NCBI RefSeq assembly: GCF_024346715.1
Contig: NZ_AP024853.1
Span: forward strand, 1,426,001-1,490,000
Length of the DNA stretch: 64,000 bases
DNA from: Photobacterium swingsii
GTDB taxonomy: Bacteria > Pseudomonadota > Gammaproteobacteria > Enterobacterales > Vibrionaceae
Reading direction: 5' to 3'
The notes beneath the pieces are model-generated. The model made no database searches. It was not told the DNA's origin and was given only the letters and a program-made list of their open reading frames with translations. This document shows positions 7,015 through 21,086 of this stretch, in pieces. Position 1 is the first letter of the stretch; the number at the start of each line of letters is the position of its first letter. The position numbers and the translations under genes are program-made.

Positions 7015-8547
7015 CTACGCGTCTTTTTTAGGGGGGCGCGATGGTGTAACAAGCTTTTGGCTTATGCGCGGCGCGCCGACCAAAATCCAGATCATACCGC
7101 ACAAGATAGCAAGGGAATTCACCACCAAAATTAAGATGCTAGTGGTTGCAGAGCTGATTAGCAGCATAGGCATACCAACGATAACAACTAGGCCAAGTAG
7201 TGCAATGACAAGGTGTTGCCATGAAGCGACCTTACTGCTGGTGCCCATCTGTTTGTGGTTATTGGTTAGCTGGGGTTTGACAAAGAATAACGAAATAAAA
7301 ATCCCTAGCGCAGCGAACCACGAGAATACATATAAGGGCTGAATCAGCTGCAAGGTGCCGTAAAAGTACATCGCTAATAATAACAACCATAAGCGTTTTG
7401 ATTCGATCAGTCGCTTGTTATTGGTATAGCGGTTATGACAAACAGCCAGTGACATTAGGGCAATTACACCACCTAAACCCACACCAGCCACGACATCTAT
7501 TGGATAATGTACGCCTAGCCAAACTCGTGCCGCACCCGCCAGCAATGACAACGCAAGCCAGCTTACAACAGCCGTTGGGATCGAAATTTTAATACGCTGT
7601 TTGCCTTCCGTGAATAGCCAACCGATCAGTACCCCAATCATGGCTGCGGCTTGCGTGGTATGCCCGCTTGGGAAACTAAACCCACTCGCTTGTGTTTGTT
7701 GCAGGCTCGGTAAGAAATAAAACGGTCGCGGCACTGCAAAACCAATTTTTAATAGGTTCACGGAATAGGCTGTCGCAAGCAGAGCAAATGCAATGGTCAG
7801 CCCATAACGTAGCGGAAATATCAGTAGGCAAACAAGTAACAAACCCACTGCCAATGCACCTTCGCCTAATCCATTAGAGAGGTTCAATAACTCACGTACA
7901 GGAGGGATGGATTTTATCCATGCTTGGAAAGATTCCATCAAAGTGAGTTGGGTTAACTGCAGGCTGTCTGCATGCTCGGTTAAATCTTGAAGGGGATAAA
8001 ACTGTGTTAGCTTGCTCGCGTTTATCCAAGCGTGTAGTGCTTCAGTATCGCTTGGATAGCGGTATTTAGCCGCCACCACTGGGGTTAATGCCGTGAGGTA
8101 AACTTGACGGATCTCTTTACCGAAATGCTCAGAATTGAGCGCTGGGATGATGTGTGCGTTAAAGCCATTCTCAACGGCAGGATCAATGTAGCCTGTTGGT
8201 GAACTTGGCTGGCAGCTAAATACAACACGGTTATTATTTATGGCAAGCTGTTGACCAACGGTAACCGTGATCCCGGTTTCTTCAAGGGTTTCACGCTTCG
8301 CTGCGGCTTGAAAGGTTTCGCTACTGTCAATGTAGCCGCCAGGTAGTGACAGGGTTCGGGTAAGATAATCTTGTACTAAGATGACTTGCCCTTTTGCATC
8401 TCGGATAACACATGTCGCCCCTTTTGGGTGAAATGCTTGGGCTGAATCGGTTTGGGGGGCTACTTGGGTTTTGGTCTGAGTCTCAGCAAAAGACAATGGG
8501 CTTAACAAAGAAATAAAAAGGCTGAATAAAATGAACTTGAATTGCAA
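7015..8547 (-). CDS. bifunctional NUDIX hydrolase / PAP2 phosphatase fusion
   Basis: A 510-residue two-domain membrane protein. A signal-like N terminus (to about residue 21, SFA) precedes a NUDIX domain with a complete Nudix box at residues 71–93 (G-x5-E-x7-RE-x2-EE-x-GI). A multi-helix membrane part then carries the PAP2 phosphatase motifs: K-x6-RP (KIGFAVPRP), PSGH in FSFPSGHTTQ, and R-x5-H-x3-D in RVWLGVHYPID. The first serine of the SR motif is replaced by alanine, which is tolerated in many homologues. Both active sites would face the periplasm. Further helices follow the PAP2 domain. It probably dephosphorylates lipid or isoprenoid pyrophosphates, with the NUDIX domain acting on a linked diphosphate; this is inference. 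Confidence 0.88.
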   Translation of the reverse strand: MQFKFILFSLFISLLSPLSFAETQTKTQVAPQTDSAQAFHPKGATCVIRDAKGQVILVQDYLTRTLSLPGGYIDSSETFQAAAKRETLEETGITVTVGQQLAINNNRVVFSCQPSSPTGYIDPAVENGFNAHIIPALNSEHFGKEIRQVYLTALTPVVAAKYRYPSDTEALHAWINASKLTQFYPLQDLTEHADSLQLTQLTLMESFQAWIKSIPPVRELLNLSNGLGEGALAVGLLLVCLLIFPLRYGLTIAFALLATAYSVNLLKIGFAVPRPFYFLPSLQQTQASGFSFPSGHTTQAAAMIGVLIGWLFTEGKQRIKISIPTAVVSWLALSLLAGAARVWLGVHYPIDVVAGVGLGGVIALMSLAVCHNRYTNNKRLIESKRLWLLLLAMYFYGTLQLIQPLYVFSWFAALGIFISLFFVKPQLTNNHKQMGTSSKVASWQHLVIALLGLVVIVGMPMLLISSATTSILILVVNSLAILCGMIWILVGAPRISQKLVTPSRPPKKDA

Positions 8548-13624: not shown

Positions 13625-14317
13625 TTATGCGTTGCGTGGATTGATGGTGGTTACGGCGTCGTTGAAGCGTCCATAAACGCCTGTTGCGTCAGCCATGGCC
13701 TCTTCGGCTGGCACGCCTTTTTCAACACTTGCCATCATTTTTCCGAGGTTAAGATATTGGTAACCAATCACTTCATTATTGTCGTCGAGTGCCAGTTTCG
13801 TTACATAGCCTTCGGCGAGTTCCATATAACGCACCCCTTTAGCGGAAGTGGCGTAACTGGTGCCGACTTGGCTTCGTTGGGTTTTTCCTAAATCTTCCAG
13901 TGCTGCGCCAATTTCTAAGCCGTCTTCAGAGAAGGCAGATTGGCTGCGACCATAAACAAGCTGTAAGAAAATTTCGCGCATGGCAACATTGATAGCATCA
14001 CAGACAAGGTCGGTATTGAGCGCTTCAAGCAGGGTTTTGCCCGTCAGAATTTCTGCGGCCATTGAAGCAGAGTGGGTCATGCCCGAGCAGCCAATGGTCT
14101 CGATGAGTGCTTCTTCGATGATGCCCTTTTTGATATTAAGGGTGAGCTTAGCCGCACCTTGCTGCGGGGCGCATGTGCCCACGCCATGGCTTAAGCCTGA
14201 AATGGCAATAACGTCTGTTGGACGGATCATGCGGCCTTCAACAGGGATAGGCGCAGAGGGGTGTAAATCGCCACGCTGAACGGGGCACATAGATTGGATT
14301 TCAGTAGAGTATTGCAT
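13625..14317 (-). CDS. NifU/IscU-like Fe–S scaffold protein
   Basis: A 230-residue protein with an IscU-type core. ETIGCSGMTHSASMAAEILTGKTLLEAL corresponds to the second scaffold cysteine region of IscU (GC-x-x-x-x-AS, then GKTL-EA). The preceding GVGTCAPQQGAAKLTL fits the first cysteine strand in modified form. An extra N-terminal part has SMCPVQRGD, and an extended C-terminal part (residues 130–230) replaces the short IscU end. It therefore differs from the housekeeping IscU and belongs to the stand-alone scaffold type found beside GGGtGRT genes. A ribosome binding site (AAGGAAAA) precedes ATG at 14317. It is first gene of a two-gene operon with a 270-nt leader holding a likely riboswitch. 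Confidence 0.85.
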   Translation of the reverse strand: MQYSTEIQSMCPVQRGDLHPSAPIPVEGRMIRPTDVIAISGLSHGVGTCAPQQGAAKLTLNIKKGIIEEALIETIGCSGMTHSASMAAEILTGKTLLEALNTDLVCDAINVAMREIFLQLVYGRSQSAFSEDGLEIGAALEDLGKTQRSQVGTSYATSAKGVRYMELAEGYVTKLALDDNNEVIGYQYLNLGKMMASVEKGVPAEEAMADATGVYGRFNDAVTTINPRNA

Positions 14318-14585
14318 GGCGTTTTCCTTTAAATGTTAGGAAAACAAGTGTGTTGGCGTGTTATATCCCTACAGAAAAATAGTATCAATTTGAACAAGCC
14401 ACGGATCGAATACTAACGATAAAAGCAATATAAAATCGATTCAAAATAATTGTCATCAGTGGTGCTAATAACAATAATTTTGATTAAGCGATAAGTGCTT
14501 TAATCCGTTACATGGATCACATGTTTGTGCAGATTGATATGAGCCACATCCGTCGCTCACCAACAGTTACACCTGTTTTCTTTTC
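14318..14585. other. leader between riboswitch and NifU-like gene
   Basis: About 270 nt on the minus strand between the aptamer and the first codon. It holds an internal dyad (GATTAA…TTAATC at about 14482–14505 on the plus strand) and no convincing gene. No clear T-run terminator follows the aptamer directly, so the switching mechanism is not obvious. Confidence 0.4.
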
Positions 14586-14666
14586 TGTAGGAGTCATCAG
14601 CCACATGGCGGTTGTTACCAGCTCCGTCGTAACGGTATTGGTTGAGTAGGTGGAACCCCATCACCT
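14586..14666 (-). ncRNA. fluoride (crcB) riboswitch candidate
   Basis: On the minus strand the segment begins AGGTGATGGGGTTCCACCT, a 5-bp stem with the ATGG loop typical of crcB RNAs, and ends AACCGCC…GGCTGATGACTCCTACAG. The order GG-x-GATGG-x-x-TTCC-x-CC, AACCGC, GCTGATGACTCCTAC is the consensus I know for crcB aptamers. The expected pseudoknot is possible: GGGGT in the first loop pairs with ACTCC near the end. A 33-nt insertion with its own small hairpin separates the two halves. The next gene downstream on this strand is the NifU-like scaffold. I cannot run a covariance model. Confidence 0.72.
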
Positions 14667-14780
14667 TTGCTAAACATGCTACTGCCAAAACATGATGTGC
14701 TGCAATCGTCTTTTTAGACGCCTTTTCTCTATAAAACGGCTTCTTTAGTATGAAATGAGCATAAAAACGTGAGGAGTGTC

Positions 14781-14978: not shown

Positions 14979-16406
<1,428 letters not shown>

Positions 16407-18377: not shown

Positions 18378-21086
18378 ATGCCCTTTTTAGCGGACGCTAA
18401 TGTTCCATTTCCTTCGCAACCTGCTCATACATCAATGACGATTGGTGTGATAGTGCCGCTATTGAGTGGTTTTTATTTGGGGGAGATCACCTCTAGCTTA
18501 CGATTAATTGCCCAGCAAAAAGGGGTGAATTTAGTGCTGATTAGAACAGGTGGTTTTGATGATTATCAACTACCACTTGCGTTTGATCATCTCGATGGGT
18601 TACTGACTATTTTAGATTCAGCATCGCCAGCACTTTTGGAATGTGCGATTGAGCGGGGCATTAAAGTCATGTCACTGGGTGAGTCATACCCCACATTGGA
18701 AGTGGAAACTATCCGCAGCGATCAACAGCAAGGTGTTGAAGCGGTTTTTGATCATCTTGTCAGACAGGGCCACCAAAAAATAGGTTTTTGTGGCAACTTG
18801 TCGGTTGAAGATATCCAAGTTCGCTTTAAAGCCTACCAATCTCGATTCGAACATTGGCAGATGCCATATCAAGCGCATTGGTTTTTTTCTATTAGTGAGT
18901 CGACTTTACCCGGTGGGCGTGATGCGGGGCGGCAGTTTATTGCTCGTAACTCTGAGTGCACCGCAATCATCTGTGCTACCGACTACAATGCGGTCGGGTT
19001 TATTGAACAATTAAAAACGGTGAATATTGCCGTTCCAGCGCAGTTAGCGGTGGCGAGTATCGATAATACGTTGCTTGGTGCACGGTTTGAACCGGCATTA
19101 ACCACTATAAATCAACAGCTTGAAAATTTGGTTGAACGAGCACTCGATCGTTTAATTGAGCGTATTAAAGGGGCGCCATATAGTTCAGGTGATATAGTGA
19201 TGCCCCAGCAGCTTATTGTACGTGATTCTTGTGGGGCACCAGAATCAAAGAAATGCGCCAGTGCAAACCTCAGTTATGTGCGACAACAATTATTGGATGA
19301 TTTGGCCCACCGACCAGAAGAAATACATGAATCATTTTTTAACTTGGCTCAGCATGGTTTTCATTCATTACTTAATTTACCGAGTGTTTATAACACATCG
19401 TTAAAATGGGCGTTTTTTGCGTTGAATTACCGTGATTATGATCAAGACAAGCTCTACGTCACGCAAGCGTGCGCAATGGGAGAAGAAGAGCAGCGCTGTA
19501 AAGATATTACGCAGCATGCATTTTTGCCATCTCAGTATCCCCCTGCTGAATTGTATAACTACCACTTACCAGACGCCTTCCTTATTACCTTGATCCCTAT
19601 ACCACAAGAATCTAATGGTTTATGTGGGGTTGTGGCTGTGGTTGATGACTTATATTCAGATTCAAGCGCGAGTGGCTACAGTATGTTTAATAACTATTTG
19701 GACATGCTATCACTGTTTATTGAGCGTGATGCCTTGATCGAATCGGTGAAGCTGCGGGAAGAAAAGTCCCAAAATATGGCGACTAAAATTCGTCATTTGG
19801 CGTACTACGATACCCTGACTGGTATTCCGAATCGTATCATGATGAAAGAGCAGCTAGATCGCCATATTCAACAGCGACCTCGAGTTCCCCATGCAGCTAT
19901 GTTGATGGATCTCGATCGATTTAAATTCGTGAATGATACCTATGGACATGATGTGGGTGATGCCCTTTTACAGCATGTATCAGCGGCTCTACGCCGAGTG
20001 ATCAGGCGCAATGATAAATTAGCGCGATTAGGCGGGGATGAATTTTTATTTTTTTGTGATGTCTCGACCAATGAAGCTGCTTTAATGCTGGCGAACCGTA
20101 TTCTGCAAGAAGTCGAAACGCCTTTTGTTTTTAATGGTTTAGAGTTAGCGACTCAAGGCAGTATTGGTATTGCTTTCTATCCTCATGATGGGGCGACTGC
20201 GGATGATTTGATCAAAAAAGCGGACATTGCTATGTACCGCGCAAAGCGCGATAGCTCAGTGAGTGCGATGTTATATGACTGCTCGATGGATTCTGATGTG
20301 CAGTTACAAGCAACACTAGAACAGCTATTACGTCAAGCCATTGAAAATGAAGACCTTAGTGTACATTTTCAACCACAATATAACCCATATACAGGCAAAC
20401 TTTATGGGGTGGAAAGCTTAGCGCGTTGGTATTCGCCTGCACTGGGACACATTAGCCCCACGACTTTTATTGCAGTAGCTGAAGAGAGCGGCTTAATTTA
20501 TAAGCTCGGCGAGTTGATGACACGTAAGTCCGTACGTGAGCATGTACGTTGGTCTGCCATGTACCCTGATGAAATACTCAAACTTTCAATCAATGTGAGT
20601 CCTGGTCAATTGGTGCGCCCGCACTTTGCTGATGACTATATTGCCGCTATTTTGGAAGAAGGCGGAAACCCAAATCACATTATTATCGAAATCACCGAAA
20701 CGGCGGCGATCACCGATCTTGAACACTGTGTCGCAATCTTAAATAAGTTTATTGATGTAGGTTTTGAGATTGCTCTTGATGATTTTGGTACTGGTTATTC
20801 ATCTTTGTCATTGCTTAAGCAACTTCCCCTGAAATACGTAAAAATAGACCGTTCATTTATTATGGACATCGACACCGATCAATCGAGTAAAGATATAGTG
20901 CGATCTATTGTGATGATGTGCCATTCCTTCGGGTATTGCACTTTAGCTGAAGGTGTTGAAACGCCAGCACAAATTGAACTGGTGAAAGAGTTGGGCTGTA
21001 ATCTGATTCAAGGGTATGTGTATAGTCGCCCTTTACCTGCAGAAGAGCTTGAACGGCTGTTACGATCTGAGTATCACCGACACTAA
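18378..21086 (+). CDS. LacI-type sugar-binding sensor fused to GGDEF–EAL
   Basis: A 902-residue c-di-GMP enzyme. Residues about 20–290 form a type I periplasmic-binding fold as in LacI/GalR regulators (TIGVIVPLLSGFYLGEI; IRSDQQQGVEAVFDHLVRQGHQKIGF; AVASIDNTLL), but the LacI DNA-binding helix-turn-helix and any signal peptide are absent. A middle region (290–470) is unassigned, perhaps GAF-like. GGDEF is intact at 552–556. The EAL motif reads ESL (679–681) but keeps the metal-binding Glu; the other EAL ligands are present (NVSP, IEITE, DDFGTGYSS, KIDRSF, AEGVET). Both activities are therefore possible. It lies between two amylase genes, so a maltodextrin-like cytoplasmic ligand is a reasonable inference. 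Confidence 0.9.
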   Translation: MPFLADANVPFPSQPAHTSMTIGVIVPLLSGFYLGEITSSLRLIAQQKGVNLVLIRTGGFDDYQLPLAFDHLDGLLTILDSASPALLECAIERGIKVMSLGESYPTLEVETIRSDQQQGVEAVFDHLVRQGHQKIGFCGNLSVEDIQVRFKAYQSRFEHWQMPYQAHWFFSISESTLPGGRDAGRQFIARNSECTAIICATDYNAVGFIEQLKTVNIAVPAQLAVASIDNTLLGARFEPALTTINQQLENLVERALDRLIERIKGAPYSSGDIVMPQQLIVRDSCGAPESKKCASANLSYVRQQLLDDLAHRPEEIHESFFNLAQHGFHSLLNLPSVYNTSLKWAFFALNYRDYDQDKLYVTQACAMGEEEQRCKDITQHAFLPSQYPPAELYNYHLPDAFLITLIPIPQESNGLCGVVAVVDDLYSDSSASGYSMFNNYLDMLSLFIERDALIESVKLREEKSQNMATKIRHLAYYDTLTGIPNRIMMKEQLDRHIQQRPRVPHAAMLMDLDRFKFVNDTYGHDVGDALLQHVSAALRRVIRRNDKLARLGGDEFLFFCDVSTNEAALMLANRILQEVETPFVFNGLELATQGSIGIAFYPHDGATADDLIKKADIAMYRAKRDSSVSAMLYDCSMDSDVQLQATLEQLLRQAIENEDLSVHFQPQYNPYTGKLYGVESLARWYSPALGHISPTTFIAVAEESGLIYKLGELMTRKSVREHVRWSAMYPDEILKLSINVSPGQLVRPHFADDYIAAILEEGGNPNHIIIEITETAAITDLEHCVAILNKFIDVGFEIALDDFGTGYSSLSLLKQLPLKYVKIDRSFIMDIDTDQSSKDIVRSIVMMCHSFGYCTLAEGVETPAQIELVKELGCNLIQGYVYSRPLPAEELERLLRSEYHRH

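Follow-up and report, generated by a model that had tools for sequence, protein, structure and literature searches.

The locus

The stretch of Photobacterium swingsii DNA considered here (64,000 nucleotides of contig NZ_AP024853.1, positions 1,426,001 to 1,490,000; "the window", whose own positions are used throughout) carries on its minus strand a nifU-like gene followed, after 13 base pairs (bp), by a gene for a GGGtGRT protein. In the 5' leader of this pair, on the same strand, lies an RNA element that very probably belongs to the fluoride riboswitch class (RF01734, also called crcB RNA) and, as predicted from sequence comparison, controls the pair. From the end of the aptamer to the ATG of the nifU-like gene there are 263 nucleotides (nt). 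The features are collected in Table 1.

An earlier note, made from the letters alone, had placed a crcB aptamer in front of an iron-sulfur (Fe-S) scaffold and a protein of unknown function. The second protein has a Pfam family of its own, GGGtGRT (PF14057), whose profile covers residues 3-320 at 555.7 bits (cut-off 27). For the first protein the NifU_N domain was found, with a PF01592 match (25.3 bits, cut-off 22) that spans only residues 55-102 of 230; as is described below, it differs from canonical NifU and IscU.

Table 1. Leader elements and genes of the pair, in the order of the transcript
Feature	Positions	Strand	Basis
Aptamer of the fluoride riboswitch RF01734, carrying some 30 inserted nt	14581..14674	-	cmscan, 54.1 bits
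Pseudoknot 5' strand, loop GGGGU, partner 14594-14590	14655..14659	-	paired in 24/24 leaders
Pseudoknot 3' strand ACUCC	14590..14594	-	covariance-model match and leader alignment
Strand A, aptamer 3' end (CCUACAGAA), common to aptamer and anti-aptamer stem	14583..14591	-	leader alignment
Strand B (GAAAACAGGUG), proposed partner of B' while the aptamer holds A	14570..14580	-	helix 87.5% paired, 2/11 pairs changed on both sides
Strand A' (UUCUGUAGG), pairs with A in the anti-aptamer stem	14368..14376	-	helix 82.9% paired (24 leaders), 4/9 pairs changed on both sides
Strand B' (CACUUGUUUUC), partner of B or, in part, of the ribosome-binding-site strand	14340..14350	-	helix tests on 24 leaders
Hairpin 14345-14338 with 14328-14321, masking Shine-Dalgarno AGGAA (14328-14324)	14321..14345	-	96.3% paired, 3/9 pairs changed on both sides
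NifU_N-domain protein, 230 amino acids	13625..14317	-	Pfam PF01592, 25.3 bits (cut-off 22); Foldseek IscU chains
GGGtGRT protein PF14057, 324 amino acids	12637..13611	-	555.7 bits; with NifU_N gene in 83/83 loci

The aptamer

The Rfam covariance model for the fluoride riboswitch, run with cmscan, matches the window at 14674-14581, scoring 54.1 bits where the gathering score is 34. The expectation value (E) is 3.2e-12 when scaled to the whole window and all 4227 Rfam families, and no other Rfam match in the window exceeds its gathering score. The aptamer proposed in the earlier note (14586-14666) falls inside this match. The match has the core blocks of the family, and the elements which that note had named can be read directly: P1 AGGTG/CACCT, the ATGG loop, AACCGCC, GGCTGATGACTCCTAC and the pseudoknot GGGGT/ACTCC. 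An insert of about 30 nt separates P1 from the AACCGCC strand; by eye it could form a stem of ACCA/TGGT and CCGT/ACGG.

For comparison we aligned 24 of the 31 leaders of the window's type, after excluding seven near-copies; covariation was tested on this alignment, while the leaders of Motilimonas, G386 and G427 stand outside it and were read by eye and folded. In the 24 leaders the five pairs of the pseudoknot between the loop and the 3' strand are paired in 100% of cells. The window RNA thus has the core, the pseudoknot and the 5'-leader position of its class; it differs in its targets, the NifU_N-domain/GGGtGRT pair. A 132-nt stretch of the leader, searched in its own genome, matched itself alone and is thus not repeated in that genome.

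Conservation of the link

In the same genus, 21 of 36 genomes contain GGGtGRT, and all 21 have an RF01734 match above the cut-off upstream of the nifU-like gene. A wider sample of the order (394 genomes) contains GGGtGRT in 57, with the aptamer 787-976 bp upstream on the same strand in 29; seen from the other side, 29 of the 62 aptamers of this sample are located at the pair. These order-sample counts are of matches above the cut-off, found with Infernal's stricter filters. The survey of related genomes that the earlier note had suggested came out in favour of the link. The distribution follows families, here given by our codes: the aptamer stands at GGGtGRT in 19/19 genomes of f1, 6/6 of f2, 2/2 of f6, 1/1 of f13 and 1/2 of f12, and in 0/20 of f3, 0/6 of f10 and 0/1 of f21. 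The one f12 genome scored as a miss, G332, has its GGGtGRT match split into two pieces that lie in different frames (G332:C13:342738-343105) with no riboswitch above the cut-off upstream, and is perhaps a decaying copy. In the sister genus g26 each of the 18 GGGtGRT genomes has the aptamer at the pair as its sole RF01734 match above the cut-off.

Among 80 named loci, the best 80 of a longer list from a profile scan, the aptamer precedes the pair in six: Aliivibrio sifiae, two Shewanella, Vibrio fluminensis, Photobacterium aquae and Motilimonas pumila. Judged by coordinates, three of these (P. aquae, one Shewanella and Motilimonas) coincide with G034, G257 and G152 of the genus and order counts and so are not independent. 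Vibrio sp. THAF191d has the aptamer upstream of the pair too. As to the other 74 named loci, the genomes of 66 gave no RF01734 match at E 0.001; the remaining eight have none at the locus, at up to E 1 for L070, L075, L089, L096, L118, L122 and L124 and over the gathering score for L137. Outside the gammaproteobacterial group the named loci thus have the pair without the aptamer.

A tree was built from 63 GGGtGRT proteins selected from 136 (quick tree method, midpoint root). All 21 riboswitch-linked rows fall inside one group of 26, with a support of 99 in the Shimodaira-Hasegawa-like approximate likelihood ratio test, together with five aptamer-less rows (f10, f21). The f10 rows may be Aeromonas, which is only a guess. 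Two changes, for example one gain and one loss, are enough to explain the distribution of the aptamer on this tree. The link is consistent with a single origin, and by these comparisons the pair is a conserved target of the predicted fluoride riboswitch. Photobacterium sanguinicancri has a GGGtGRT protein that shares 96% identity with the one of the window.

The predicted expression platform

Downstream of the aptamer the aligned leaders have a common order of strands, A-B-A'-B'-Shine-Dalgarno. Strand A belongs both to the aptamer and to a stem with A'. The helix A:A' crosses B:B', and so the two exclude each other. We call A:A' together with the Shine-Dalgarno hairpin the OFF set and P1, the pseudoknot and B:B' the ON set.

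The OFF set is 89.7% paired in the 24 leaders, and 7 of its 18 pairs show changes on both sides. It has 21 cells with changes on both sides against 7.5 in shuffles, and none of 500 shuffles reaches as high. Its covariation score is 0.211, against 0.141 for shuffles, which ignore the relatedness of the leaders, and at most 0.073 for slid versions, which correct for it in part. The ON set is 92.9% paired. Comparison of the leaders thus shows a conserved, covarying A:A' stem and ribosome-binding-site hairpin, and a conserved alternative, B:B', that would free the site.

When the window leader is folded, the probability that AGGAA is unpaired is 0.01 with the leader left free and 0.50 with 11 nt of the aptamer 3' strand (A) blocked. 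None of 48 other blocks of 11 nt, placed every 6 nt and leaving out the last 45 nt, matches this effect. In five further leaders chosen for the same test, A came first in three; in the other two, one or two other blocks equalled it. No terminator-like site was found on the minus strand between the aptamer and the start codon.

A second leader design in Photobacterium

Another clade of Photobacterium (18 leaders) keeps the aptamer, with a pseudoknot that by eye reads GAUGU/ACGUC instead of GGGGU/ACUCC (GAUGA in two rows). Many rows have a similar order of short helices, AACAAC/GUUGUU and then GAGGAC/GUCCUC; G008 has GGAUAGAUCUAU/AUAGAUCUAUCC. We leave the mechanism in this clade without a firm reading. 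A hairpin directly 5' of the aptamer is clear in 14 of its 18 rows (matched by at most 4 of 200 shuffles); among the 20 rows from leaders of the window's type and related types, one has it clearly. The sequences of this hairpin vary by species; in L021, L026 and L036, for example, they are GCCATAAA/TTTATGGC, GTTAAGAT/ATCTTAAC and GCCAAGCG/CGCTTGGC.

Exporters and other fluoride aptamers

The earlier note had seen no crcB or eriC exporter gene nearby, and the whole genome agrees: CRCB has no match in it, and CLC matches are restricted to two genes on the other of its two contigs, the replicon C1. This replicon holds a second RF01734 aptamer, of the same class as that of the window (L001; C1:3734564-3734628, minus strand, 56.7 bits), 84 nt upstream of a gene matched by the CLC family profile. 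The CLC-family gene carries a GREGT motif.

We also looked at what follows other fluoride aptamers. The order sample has 33 aptamers away from GGGtGRT, and the downstream frames of 19 were inspected (15 on L166-L179, and L001, L015, L017 and L019). Eleven of these 19, with L007 and L013 from the genus survey, were run through Pfam as a control. All 13 genes belong to types that a 2024 review (PMC11139923) names for fluoride riboswitches: CLC (5), CrcB (5), DHH/DHHA2 pyrophosphatase-type (2) and Na/H exchanger (1).

The 15 genomes of the same genus that lack GGGtGRT comprise eight with an RF01734 match above the cut-off before a CLC-like frame (judged by eye, except for L007, which was run through Pfam), one with a match below the cut-off and six with none. 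Of the 21 genomes with GGGtGRT, four (G000, G014, G015 and G018) have a second RF01734 elsewhere; it stands before a CLC-like frame in the three examined, G000, G015 and G018. As plain counts, 4/21 against 8/15, riboswitch-linked GGGtGRT and riboswitch-linked CLC are rarely together in this genus.

The two proteins

The two genes occur together in 83 of 83 loci from several phyla, and in the 38 loci with coordinates listed the nifU-like gene is the upstream one. There is no third partner: with the pair and overlapping frames excluded, the most widespread neighbour cluster reaches 8 of the 83 loci. Enolase-like genes lie near the pair in two of them, L075 (a Clostridium) and L086 (a Draconibacterium). 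Enolase is a classical fluoride target; its presence in 2 of 83 loci may be chance.

The N-terminal half of the first protein resembles IscU (PDB sequence match, E 3e-4). Foldseek, with a weak structure model (predicted local distance difference test, pLDDT, 65.8), gives ten matches below E 0.001, all of them IscU chains and the best at 1.7e-4. The protein shares with IscU/NifU the NifU_N domain, the fold of this half and the second cluster cysteine. Its cysteines C49, C77 and C106 are invariant in 26 rows; in the two alignments inspected, set against the IscU motifs, only C77 is in the IscU register, the first being out of register and the third standing in another motif. The protein also has an additional C-terminal part, some 90 residues long. 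Since only the second cysteine is in register, we do not call the protein IscU. Its scores are far below the NCBIfam equivalog cut-offs for NifU (28.5 of 187.9 bits), IscU (23.9 of 192.4) and SufU (21.5 of 92.5).

GGGtGRT is strongly conserved: the window protein is 67-83% identical to 30 others. A sequence search found no relative of it in the PDB. The structure model (pLDDT 81.8) has an alpha/beta fold without a clear structural match.

The same two genes are found in anaerobes (BT0173-BT0174, for example), where the non-gammaproteobacterial proteins are about 60-72% identical to those of the window. Unlike the window pair, those of the 74 named loci (among the best 80) that lie outside the riboswitch group have no fluoride riboswitch beside them. 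In the two species with data, Bacteroides thetaiotaomicron and Clostridium pasteurianum, expression of the pair follows iron, according to the sources cited below.

Surroundings of the pair

After the pair, on the same strand, come genes of PepT type and DcuC type, the former about 300 bp from the end of the GGGtGRT gene. The divergent neighbour (14979-16406, plus strand) resembles di-haem cytochrome c peroxidase/MauG, with a long N-terminal stretch rich in Gly, Ser, Pro and Glu. Two further frames have unusual combinations of domains by eye: one of 510 amino acids at 7015-8547 (minus strand) joins a NUDIX-like N-terminus to a PAP2-like membrane phosphatase, and one of 902 amino acids at 18378-21086 (plus strand) has a sugar-sensor domain of LacI type fused with GGDEF and EAL domains.

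Discussion

We propose that a fluoride-ON riboswitch governs the nifU-like/GGGtGRT unit, most likely at translation. With fluoride present, A would be held in the aptamer pseudoknot and A' would be free; B would pair with B', and ribosomes would start. With fluoride absent, A would pair with A', B' would revert to the Shine-Dalgarno strand and the pair would be off. The crossing strands, the covariation of the OFF set, the folding of the leader and the absence of a terminator-like site make a fluoride-ON switch at the level of translation the best reading. That the predicted switch acts on translation is probable in our judgement, and we hold the riboswitch step and translational control, taken together, with the same good confidence. 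The earlier suggestion that fluoride induces the pair gains partial support: the riboswitch class does precede the pair, the arrangement is conserved across genera, and the logic of the platform reads as fluoride-ON.

Several observations weigh against this proposal. The ON set covaries little: changes on both sides occur in 3 of its 21 pairs, a number equalled by 323 of 500 shuffles, and its further pair types fall below the shuffles, while its covariation score itself is matched by 1 of 500. When A was blocked in 33 leaders of the window's and related types, with the Shine-Dalgarno site picked by a crude rule, accessibility of this site rose by more than 0.05 in 13, fell in 3 and stayed level in the others. 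In the other Photobacterium clade A:A' exceeds shuffles in 6 of 18 rows (p at most 0.003), four of these six being near-copies, and B:B' in one (G008); neither helix alone is significant in the remaining rows. Accessibility there barely shifts with A blocked, from a mean of 0.27 to 0.29 in 19 leaders. A promoter-like site lies between the aptamer and the gene (14456-14427, minus strand), in a region where 4.2 such sites are expected by chance. Finally, the aptamer is absent from the pair in 28 of the 57 GGGtGRT genomes of the order and at 74 of the best 80 named loci, from which it follows that the basic job of the proteins needs no fluoride control.

What the pair does under fluoride is a matter for speculation. 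Our likeliest guess, which we hold tentatively, is that it keeps up the supply of iron or Fe-S clusters: the IscU-like protein and GGGtGRT would form one module that sustains this supply to some metal enzyme while fluoride ties up metal ions. The guess rests on the IscU-like fold, on the iron-dependent expression of the pair and on the response of Escherichia coli to NaF. In an iron-deficiency table for B. thetaiotaomicron in PMC10434189 the pair stands at -12.8 to -11, and the text calls NifU downregulated. For C. pasteurianum a table of PMC5395762 lists GGGtGRT with increases of 7.1-fold and 2.2-fold under iron excess, as we interpret its columns. In anaerobic E. coli NaF induces suf genes and genes for iron uptake; the authors state that iron is among the metals which fluoride complexes (PMC10100675). 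The earlier idea that the pair repairs or replaces damaged metal clusters draws indirect support from the same fold and the same sources; it is plausible and unproven. Another suggestion makes GGGtGRT an enzyme, possibly one with a phosphosugar substrate, that replaces a fluoride-poisoned one and receives its cluster from the NifU-like protein. Such a fluoride-tolerant metabolic bypass seems unlikely to us.

The switch might also act by transcription, through termination or Rho, instead of translation. Many crcB RNAs do overlap predicted terminators (Weinberg 2010, PMC2864571). Here, however, the minus strand has no terminator-like site from aptamer to gene and the hairpin holding the Shine-Dalgarno sequence is conserved and covarying, so that transcriptional control is rather improbable, somewhat more so than the bypass. 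Very unlikely, in our opinion, is that the aptamer is kept by descent or hitch-hiking, or is bypassed by a promoter within the leader, fluoride mattering little for the pair: the promoter-like site would fit this, and the aptamer-less clade nested among riboswitch carriers suggests that the aptamer can be lost, but five families retain it although their leaders have diverged, and the expression platform shows compensatory changes, which would hardly persist under neutral descent.

As far as the searched literature shows, the pair is a new target of a known riboswitch class and no new class. We found no report of the link between aptamer and pair in the literature searched, and an earlier mention in Baker 2012, in Stockbridge 2012 or in supplements is possible. 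By term search, neither "nifU" nor "GGGtGRT" occurs in Weinberg 2010 (PMC2864571), in a review of 2020 (PMC7266159) or in that of 2024 (PMC11139923), and the excerpt of PMC9495176 has no nifU among fluoride-riboswitch targets. Searches joining the fluoride riboswitch with nifU or Fe-S cluster found nothing, those with iron-sulfur brought up only topics on per- and polyfluoroalkyl substances, and those joining riboswitch, NifU and fluoride returned only works unrelated by title. The GGGtGRT literature has nothing on fluoride in titles or the beginnings of abstracts, and the word fluoride is absent from the regulon paper PMC3766115.

Returning to a fluoride-ON switch in front of an iron-related pair, the 18 of 18 g26 genomes in which no other aptamer above the cut-off was found suggest that the pair may be the chief riboswitch-controlled fluoride response there. 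Seawater contains about 70 micromolar fluoride, and this might explain the link in groups that are largely marine. One could go further and see in the pair a dedicated, exporter-independent fluoride-defence module of vibrio-like and shewanella-like gammaproteobacteria, with iron or Fe-S supply as a main fluoride target; this we regard as possible and as a shade more doubtful than the iron or Fe-S role itself.

Whatever the exact function is, the response of these bacteria to fluoride may include an iron-related gene pair besides the usual fluoride pumps, and the targets of a riboswitch can show what a toxic ion damages. If fluoride does induce an Fe-S-scaffold-like pair in many vibrios and shewanellas, this would hint that, in addition to enolase and pyrophosphatase, iron or Fe-S chemistry is hit by fluoride. 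The widespread GGGtGRT family, to which no function was assigned in anything we found, would gain a testable role.
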